64,000 nt of DNA, taken from assembly GCF_017357105.1 (NCBI RefSeq), contig NZ_CP071596.1:3410001-3474000 (forward strand), written 5' to 3'. This document shows, in pieces, positions 5,143-6,870 of the stretch; within the stretch, counting starts at the first letter, position 1; every line of letters starts with the position of its first letter. Position numbers and translations under genes: made by a program. Under the pieces are notes generated by a model, which was given only the letters and a program-made list of their open reading frames with translations, ran no database searches and was not told where the DNA came from. This stretch comes from Natronosalvus caseinilyticus. GTDB lineage: Archaea > Halobacteriota > Halobacteria > Halobacteriales > Natrialbaceae.

Positions 5143-5202
5143 TCTGGGTTGATTATTAGAGAAAACATATAGTGGCTGGCGAATAACTGGCTATCTGAAG
5201 GT

Positions 5203-6870
5203 ATGGTTTCGTCGAGCACCCGTTTCGTCACCAGTCTCCTCTTCGTCTTCGTCGTGACCACGGCCAGTGTCGTGGGGATCGTCGCCGGAACCGCGATAGC
5301 GGTGGCCACGGGAGACGACGACATCGACGGCTCGAGCGTGGGTACGCTGCTCGAGTCGACGACTCTGCCAGTCGACGATCTGGACGACGATCCGGACGAC
5401 GATATCGAAGAGACGAACGAGACGGTCAACGAGACGACGGACTCGGACGAAAACGTAACTGACGGAAACGTAACCGACGGGAGTGAGAACACCACCGACG
5501 CCGTCGAAGACGAAACCGACGACACAGTCGACACCGACGAAAATCAAACCGACGACGTCGATGGGACGGCTGAATCCGACGAAACCGTGACCGACGATGG
5601 AGACGACGTGGTTGCAGACTCGAGTGACACGCTCGAAAACACGACTGACGGAACTACTGAGACAGTCGACGACACGACGGCCTCGACGGAGATGGTAGTC
5701 GAAACGACAGAAAACACTACCGAATCCGTCGAGGATACCACGAACGATACTACCGAAACCGTCGAGAACACGACTAACGAGACGGTCGACGCGATCGAGG
5801 ACACCACGACCACCGACGCCGTAAACGAACTCGAGACCACGACTACGACCACGCTCTCGGGCACTTCCCTGCTCGAGACGCGACTCGACGCCGACGTGAG
5901 CGTCGACGCGTCCGCCGATGACGTGAAATTCGATGACGACGCAGACGAATCGCTCGAGGGTACTGGGACGGCGGTCGACGGGGAAAGTGACGGGACCGAA
6001 GCCACTGAGGGGGACGGGGATCGAAATGACGACGCCACGACCACCACCGACGATAGCGGGTCCGGATTCGGCTCCGCTTCGAGTCCCGAGACGCAACACG
6101 CCGTCAACGGTGTGCTCGTTGGGTTACTCGGGGCGGTAGCCGTGTCGGGAATGGGGGTTAGTGCTGGTGCCGGCGCGGGTGCCGGCGCCGGCGCCGGGAC
6201 GAGCGCAACGAACGCCGTCGCCAGCTGGACCGGCAGCCAGCCTCGTCGATGGCTGGCCGCGCTCCGGAACGCCCTCCCGGTCGAGGCGCTGGCCCTGCTC
6301 CGGTACAGCCGGTACGACGACTCGGATCCGCTCGAGAACGATCACCGGCGAACCGTCTTCGACACGATCACCGAGGAGCCGGGACTGTACCTCTCGGCGC
6401 TCAGCGACCGGAGCGGCGTCGCCCTGTCGACCGTTCGCCACCACGTCCGGGTGCTCGAGGACGAGAACCTGCTCACCTCAGTCAAGGTCGGGGGCAAGCG
6501 ACGCTACTTCCCGATCGAGGCGGACGGGGCAGACGGGATGGACGGAGTGGGCAGGACGGACGGGACGGACGGGGCCGACCACGAGCGATACGCCATCCTC
6601 GCCGAACCGGCCCGCCGACGAGTGCTCGAGGAGCTGGCCGCACTCGAGCACGCGTCCAACGGACGCCTCGCCGAGGCGCTCGACCTCGATCCGAGCACTG
6701 TCTCCCACCACCTCACGACGCTCGAAGAGGCGGGCTTCGTCGTCCGCGAGCGAGATGGCCGGGCCGTCCGCAATCGACTCTCCGAGGACGCCAGGTCGGC
6801 CCTGCTCGAGGCCGAAGGCGACGTCGACTCGAGCGACCCGGCGTCGGCTCCGGCTCCGGCGGACGACTGA
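5203..6870 (+). CDS. Membrane-tethered regulator: sequon-rich exterior stalk, TM helix, two winged-helix domains
   Basis: The 555-residue protein begins with a hydrophobic segment (about 7-34, signal or anchor). A long low-complexity stalk of Thr, Asp, Glu and Asn follows, to about residue 290, with 11 N-x-S/T sequons that I counted. A second hydrophobic helix (about 300-323) ends in an alternating Ala/Gly run. Two ArsR-type winged helices follow: residues 382-442 (STVRHHVRVLEDENLL) and 462-540 (STVSHHLTTLEEAGFV). The layout suggests an exported, glycosylated sensor with cytoplasmic DNA-binding domains. This is inference; ligand and targets are unknown. An acatatag element lies about 34 bases upstream. 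Confidence 0.8.
   Translation: MVSSSTRFVTSLLFVFVVTTASVVGIVAGTAIAVATGDDDIDGSSVGTLLESTTLPVDDLDDDPDDDIEETNETVNETTDSDENVTDGNVTDGSENTTDAVEDETDDTVDTDENQTDDVDGTAESDETVTDDGDDVVADSSDTLENTTDGTTETVDDTTASTEMVVETTENTTESVEDTTNDTTETVENTTNETVDAIEDTTTTDAVNELETTTTTTLSGTSLLETRLDADVSVDASADDVKFDDDADESLEGTGTAVDGESDGTEATEGDGDRNDDATTTTDDSGSGFGSASSPETQHAVNGVLVGLLGAVAVSGMGVSAGAGAGAGAGAGTSATNAVASWTGSQPRRWLAALRNALPVEALALLRYSRYDDSDPLENDHRRTVFDTITEEPGLYLSALSDRSGVALSTVRHHVRVLEDENLLTSVKVGGKRRYFPIEADGADGMDGVGRTDGTDGADHERYAILAEPARRRVLEELAALEHASNGRLAEALDLDPSTVSHHLTTLEEAGFVVRERDGRAVRNRLSEDARSALLEAEGDVDSSDPASAPAPADD

Follow-up and report, generated by a model that had tools for sequence, protein, structure and literature searches.

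What kind of protein joins an export helix, a long stalk, a second membrane helix and two winged helices (wHTHs) in a single chain, and on which side of the membrane would each part lie? The question is raised by one gene in the window, by which we mean the whole stretch of 64,000 nucleotides of Natronosalvus caseinilyticus DNA that was analysed. Positions 5203-6870 of its + strand, on which all the parts of this gene described below lie, form one open reading frame with an ATG start that encodes 555 amino acids, and this frame proved to be real and to have the layout that the first-pass annotation had given it, namely helix, stalk, helix and two wHTHs. Hydropathy is maximal at residues 9-27 (KD 2.36) and 304-322 (KD 1.90), with the next non-overlapping segment reaching 0.86, and together with the domain matches it bore out the membrane-tethered order. 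With the helices called by hydropathy alone, the product is a predicted two-helix membrane protein with a C-terminal wHTH pair. Its export or anchor helix (residues 1-36; 5203..5310) has a Sec-type look, with R7 and a hydrophobic core at residues 9-27; AlphaFold2 models a helix at residues 4-29, and relatives have one at an equal position. At the other end, the chain closes with an acidic tail (residues 536-555; 6808..6867) whose final letters are PADD. Among the 35 members of our alignment A2, the C-terminal residue is D in 32 and E in 3, and Natrialbaceae typically end in PADD; two loci outside A2, L064 and L076, have a C-terminus that is neither D nor E.

The two winged helices are of different types. 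The first, which together with a preceding YSRYDDSDPLE motif spans residues 368-442 (6304..6528), matched the Pfam family HTH_HVO_0163_N (PF24266) at residues 379-442 with 48.1 bits against a gathering cut-off of 31, and the second (residues 459-535; 6577..6807) matched the NCBIfam ArsR/SmtB model NF033788 with 85.6 bits against a cut-off of 55, as well as the Pfam HTH_20/ArsR family at residues 466-515. Hence, where two ArsR-type winged helices had been read at first, two winged helices there are, and the second is of ArsR type, but the first belongs to the HVO_0163_N type. AlphaFold2 modelled the pair mostly with pLDDT above 90, and a Foldseek comparison placed the second wHTH nearest to CzrA and SmtB, the match to CzrA having Z 14.7 and rmsd 1.7 over 94 residues (VIA; rows within Z 1 count as tied). 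A cysteine-based metal site is one of the site types of ArsR/SmtB proteins, and metal sensing by this route was rejected because the 555-residue protein contains 0 Cys. A paralogue in the window's own genome (L002) consists of a 197-aa open frame with the wHTH pair and, by eye, neither a membrane helix nor export parts, which favours the pair as a cytoplasmic DNA-binding module.

We found homologues with an identical domain order across many genera, so that the layout is beyond chance. Relatives at E<=1e-20 were present in 65 of the 125 genomes of the window's family, the Natrialbaceae, and with the wHTH part alone as query they appeared in 36 of 195 genomes sampled across the order, a sample that took in the family itself. 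Scanning with the wHTH alignment A1, built from 18 hand-picked ORFs, gave 63 named loci, which belong to Natrialbaceae and further Halobacteria, plus a single record titled Actinarchaeum halophilum. A 72-row tree, midpoint-rooted for drawing only, grouped the window protein with its congeners (97/92) inside a Natrialbaceae branch (90/89) that includes all 13 rows with gas vesicle genes at the locus. Two further alignments combined the window protein with 34 of 42 stretches (A2) or 16 of 36 (A3). A survey of charge and KD retained 70 stalked members and skipped 22 (7 in which the first helix was not found, 14 in which the segment rule failed and 1 with a short stalk); in three of the members retained (L035, L039 and L041) the frame runs too far upstream, which inflates their stalk figures in the survey, and the count of sequon contexts was made without them, on 67 members, 60 of them with at least 4 Asn. 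One locus, L097 from Halostagnicola sp. A56, begins by eye like an FAD-dependent oxidoreductase, which may point to a gene fusion, to rearranged DNA or to a faulty assembly; it was excluded from A2 and A3 and included in the charge survey, the tree and the sequon-context count. In addition, 16 named loci (L127, L129-L133, L135-L138, L141, L142 and L144-L147) make up a short class of 226-304 aa, mostly with a single signal-like helix that a short linker joins to the wHTH pair and with no clear second helix; one of them, L146, has no obvious helix in its listed frame. In this layout the first helix could act as an anchor of unusual orientation; if instead the signal were cleaved, the wHTHs of the short class would lie outside.

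The most distinctive part of the protein is its stalk (residues 37-296; 5311..6090), an acidic, Thr-rich low-complexity segment of 260 residues, 77% of them D, E, T, S, N or G and only 3 of them K or R. All 11 N-X-S/T sequons of the chain, starting at residues 72-192, fall within it, and the rest of the chain has 0. Shuffling the stalk 20,000 times yielded 3.96 +/- 1.61 sequons and never 11, and the excess was significant in such shuffles (P<0.01) in 41 of the 70 surveyed members. We compared how often Asn stands in a sequon context with how often Asp or Glu does: in the window's stalk, 11 of 13 Asn did so versus 32 of 89 Asp/Glu (p=0.001). Pooled over the 67 members, the figures were 493 of 687 (72%) versus 1449 of 4165 (35%) in the stalk, and 16 of 216 (7%) versus 273 of 2249 (12%) in the wHTH half, pooled values that overstate the certainty, as kindred sequences and repeats are not independent. 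Member by member, Asn exceeded Asp/Glu in the stalks of 56 of the 60 proteins with at least 4 Asn, with p<0.05 in 38 of the 60. The notion that the sequons merely follow from composition was not supported by the shuffles and by the Asp/Glu context control, with the caveat of non-independent repeats; the 11-residue periodicity of the window's stalk is slight (match 0.21 versus 0.14 expected). A gene for an archaeal oligosaccharyltransferase is present in the same genome (861 bits against a cut-off of 450), and because of this gene and the sequon contrast, we read the stalk as probably exported and N-glycosylated. Sequons are not obligatory, because 10 of the 70 members carry 0-2 of them, and glycosylation would not be universal, nor is a stalk of purely acidic character, given that some stalks are free of sequons (L106, L107 and L111) and others rich in K/R (L105, L112 and L120).

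Does the stalk contain a sensor? AlphaFold2 gave it pLDDT block means of 29-46 with secondary structure absent, and it therefore looks disordered in so far as a structureless, low-confidence model can indicate; a folded sensor domain was found neither among the Pfam matches listed nor in the stalk model. A disordered exterior in place of a folded sensor had been proposed from the first reading, and the structureless model agrees with it, although the sequon-rich character ascribed to this exterior is not shared by all relatives. Compared with five congeners, the stalk had dN/dS ratios of 0.34-0.59 and 95-182 gap columns, and its type varied by genus, from NETTD-like repeats to DDPDDP, SDTSDSPDD and PPDDxGPP. 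The sequence of the stalk thus drifts freely, and a long low-complexity stalk persists. At the extreme, two chains of about 1532 (L104) and about 762 residues (L092) share an equal wHTH end, a sign that stalk length is very free.

The asymmetry between the two halves of the chain bears on orientation. All 70 of the 70 surveyed members carry more K+R on the C-terminal side of the second helix than on its N-terminal side, a sign rather than a proof as the segment after the helix is the longer one, and the concentration of sequons on the stalk side is the stronger of the two indications. Together they lend computational support to the orientation proposed at the outset, with the stalk predicted outside and the wHTH pair inside. 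One could also imagine export of the whole chain, so that the wHTH pair would bind DNA outside the cell, at its surface, as the obvious signal-like helix standing alone in the short class might suggest. This we consider extremely unlikely in view of the K+R excess in all stalked members, the paralogue that has no export parts and the rarity of sequons in the wHTH half, where 16 of 216 Asn in the pooled members and 8 of 66 in the short class stand in a sequon context.

In the stalk-out orientation, the second membrane helix (residues 297-325; 6091..6177) would connect the two sides. Between the window and five congeners, its dN/dS was 0.05-0.24 at 79-97% identity, compared with 0-0.13 for the first wHTH and 0.05-0.30 for the second, ratios that, like those of the stalk, are rough for the three distant congeners, in which dS is high. 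By this measure, conservation of the helix is roughly on a level with that of the first winged helix. It carries a small303-x3-G307-x2-G310 pattern, and in A2 position 303 was Gly, Ala or Ser in 88% of 32 residue-bearing rows, position 307 Gly in 84% of 31 rows and position 310 Gly in 85% of 34 rows. Mean residue area, on a scale to which the threshold of 172 in PMC10269533 does not strictly apply, was 153 over residues 304-322 and 177 over the first helix. The membrane helix with an Ala/Gly run that had been annotated at first is indeed there, but the run (about residues 320-333) lies after the hydrophobic core and not within it. Residues 326-367 (6178..6303) take in this run and a basic amphipathic juxtamembrane segment, with 4 K+R, against 0 in residues 297-325, and with helices in the AlphaFold2 models. 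We regard the conserved membrane helix, rather than the sequence of the stalk, as the candidate signalling element.

These observations can be combined in a reading that we hold with moderate confidence, in which the protein is a one-component transmembrane transcription regulator with its stalk outside that signals through association of its Gly-rich helix. The N-terminal helix would direct the chain to the Sec route, and the exported stalk would stay disordered, polyanionic and probably N-glycosylated, serving as a charged spacer, while the Gly-rich second helix would span the membrane and the HVO_0163-type and ArsR-type winged helices would remain cytoplasmic and, tethered there, engage the DNA. 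Most likely, helix association through the small-x3-G pattern would then respond to the state of the membrane or the cell surface, for instance by stalk brushes repelling each other or packing under the S-layer, and a change in this putative dimerisation would alter how the tandem wHTHs engage their DNA. A sensing role of the stalk itself, with surface crowding, salt or S-layer integrity as its input, would be hypothetical, as it was in the first reading. We favour signalling by helix association because the exterior lacks a recognised fold and because the residue area of residues 304-322 is lower than that of the first helix. Several findings speak against it: KD of the second helix was at least 1.6 in 38 of the 70 members but below 1.6 in 32, some of them weak (0.8-1.4); AlphaFold2 models the second helix as a short stretch (300-315) with low confidence; the 16 loci of the short class have no clear second helix; and some members have sequon-free or K/R-rich stalks. 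A bolder extension holds that envelope crowding, glycosylation or tension is read by a glycan brush free of defined sequence and passed through the Gly-packed helix to the wHTHs. The stalk seems to be conserved only as a disordered charged polymer, loaded with sequons in many members, and we offer this extension tentatively, as rather unlikely.

The same helix could serve in other ways. A rhomboid-type or site-2 protease might cut it after a surface signal and so free the wHTH pair by regulated intramembrane proteolysis. Rhomboids prefer helix-destabilising substrates, and both the richness of the helix and the following stretch in Gly, Ala and Ser and the strong conservation of the helix would suit such a cut, as would the existence of a paralogue with no visible membrane helix. 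However, a protease gene was not seen among the annotated neighbours, which are part of all neighbours, and transmembrane transcription regulators (TTRs) are described in PMC10269533 as acting from the membrane; we therefore judge proteolytic release unlikely. Alternatively, the protein may be a passive tether that holds chromosomal sites at the membrane and senses nothing, with the stalk as a spacer from the S-layer. Such a tether would be at ease with the missing folded sensor, as far as the listed Pfam matches and the model go, and with a stalk that drifts in sequence and persists as a long low-complexity segment, but the patchy presence of the gene, matched at E<=1e-20 in 65 of the 125 genomes of the family, is more in keeping with an accessory regulator than with a chromosome anchor, and the constraint on the helix would seem to go beyond an anchor's need, which leaves a purely passive role distinctly improbable.

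If the protein regulates transcription from the membrane, which genes might it control? In the window, the gene is flanked upstream by one for a PAP2-superfamily protein and downstream by one for a topoisomerase that carries Toprim and Topoisom_bac domains; another neighbouring ORF (306-1076) looks by eye like an exported halocyanin-type lipoprotein, with an acidic Thr/Asn-rich spacer of stalk-like composition. Among 15 Natrialbaceae loci viewed with 8-kb flanks (L086-L100), gas vesicle genes were called in 13 and mutS in 10, the gene lay between the two in 8, and gvpO, where called, faced the regulator gene. In other haloarchaeal families, the gene is often near dcd (dCTP deaminase), as at L106, L107, L112, L113, L116, L118, L119, L121, L122 and L124.

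Control of the adjacent gas vesicle cluster would be compatible with a stalk-out regulator, and it is attractive in that the gene lies within 10 kb of a GvpA/J match, among the matches listed and taking the best listed family place per genome, in 44 of 65 family genomes. Most haloarchaeal clusters have no gvpDE regulators and the expression timing of those of Natrinema pellirubrum, Natrialba magadii and others is not known, according to the review PMC4390858. Of the 59 genomes that have both mutS and the gene, 42 have them no more than 5 kb apart. Yet mutS and gvp lie within 15 kb of each other in 35 of the 42 same-contig genomes that lack the gene (no match at E<=1e-20) as well as in 47 of the 50 that have it, and relatives in other families often sit near dcd instead. 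Moreover, four genomes with no listed GvpA/J match have retained the gene, and in the window's genome it lies 241 kb from the nearest gvp match listed, with mutS and gvp still within 4 kb of each other. Because the mutS-gvp linkage persists without the gene, the proximity to gas vesicle genes is probably inherited gene order and weak functional evidence; we set the link aside as a functional one and rate control of the gas vesicle cluster very unlikely.

The gene might also act on its own promoter. A putative, weak core promoter, consisting of an A-rich BRE-like stretch and CATATA, can be read at 5159..5171, and letters resembling GAAAA..GTATTA occur at a similar place in many relatives. Four of 15 promoters compared (L086, L094, L095 and L100) carry a GTGACNGTCAC-like palindrome (at most 1 mismatch) about 60 bases before the start, where it adjoins the A-rich BRE-like stretch and a GTATTA-like region that is found in most of the 15; the palindrome is absent from the remaining 11 promoters, and the upstream DNA of the window differs. 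We regard it as a possible autoregulatory site, a candidate from sequence comparison.

Well-studied membrane-bound regulators are thought to sense via a folded domain. A widespread archaeal family with no recognisable outside sensor, a drifting stalk and a conserved helix would provide a clean test of whether the state of the membrane or surface alone can drive transcription, and the difference in sequon use between two halves of a single chain may offer a computational topology marker in haloarchaea. Proteins of the ToxR/CadC type, with which our protein would share DNA binding from the membrane, have an OmpR-type wHTH at the N-terminus and, in the periplasm, a folded domain, whereas here the wHTHs are C-terminal and of HVO_0163 and ArsR types and the outside part is predicted to be disordered, a plan that is not ToxR-like. 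With the ArsR/SmtB repressors CzrA and SmtB, the protein shares the fold of its second wHTH and a sequence model above the cut-off, and it differs from them in being free of cysteine and in having a further wHTH and a membrane anchor on the same chain. The HVO_0163 family (PF24266) has the same type of first HTH, above the gathering score, but its best members reach 115-122 bits compared to 48 here, and 19 of its best 30 are open frames of 170-220 aa, the others being longer, to which the present protein adds stalk and membrane helices. HVO_0163 itself is described in PMC10294847 as an ArsR-type protein that increased after hypochlorite. ArnR and ArnR1 of Sulfolobus acidocaldarius, the archaeal case that has been studied, are membrane-bound one-component HTH regulators that, according to PMC6396743, have an N-terminal HTH, a putative HAMP and sensor region and two C-terminal transmembrane segments; the order is reversed here, and no HAMP or sensor domain was found among the 25 of 30 Pfam matches listed.

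We found no description of the stalked family in the open-access papers searched. A published counterpart is the TTR class (PMC10269533, Demey et al. 2023), whose transmembrane regions were predicted by TMHMM and in which TTRs with low-surface-area helices carry fewer sensory domains, so that direct modulation by the membrane was suggested. Our protein has a predicted DNA-binding domain and, on hydropathy only (KD 2.36 and 1.90), at least one transmembrane region, and by analogy it fits this class, for which gene regulation from the membrane would be predicted. Shared with the TTRs are the union of a DNA-binding domain and a membrane helix in one chain and low-area helices that may read the membrane, while the C-terminal tandem of haloarchaeal wHTHs, the long, probably disordered and sequon-rich exported stalk and the combination of an export helix with a second helix set our protein apart. 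Overall, the stalked regulator family is real and conserved, and it is a variation on the published TTR class.
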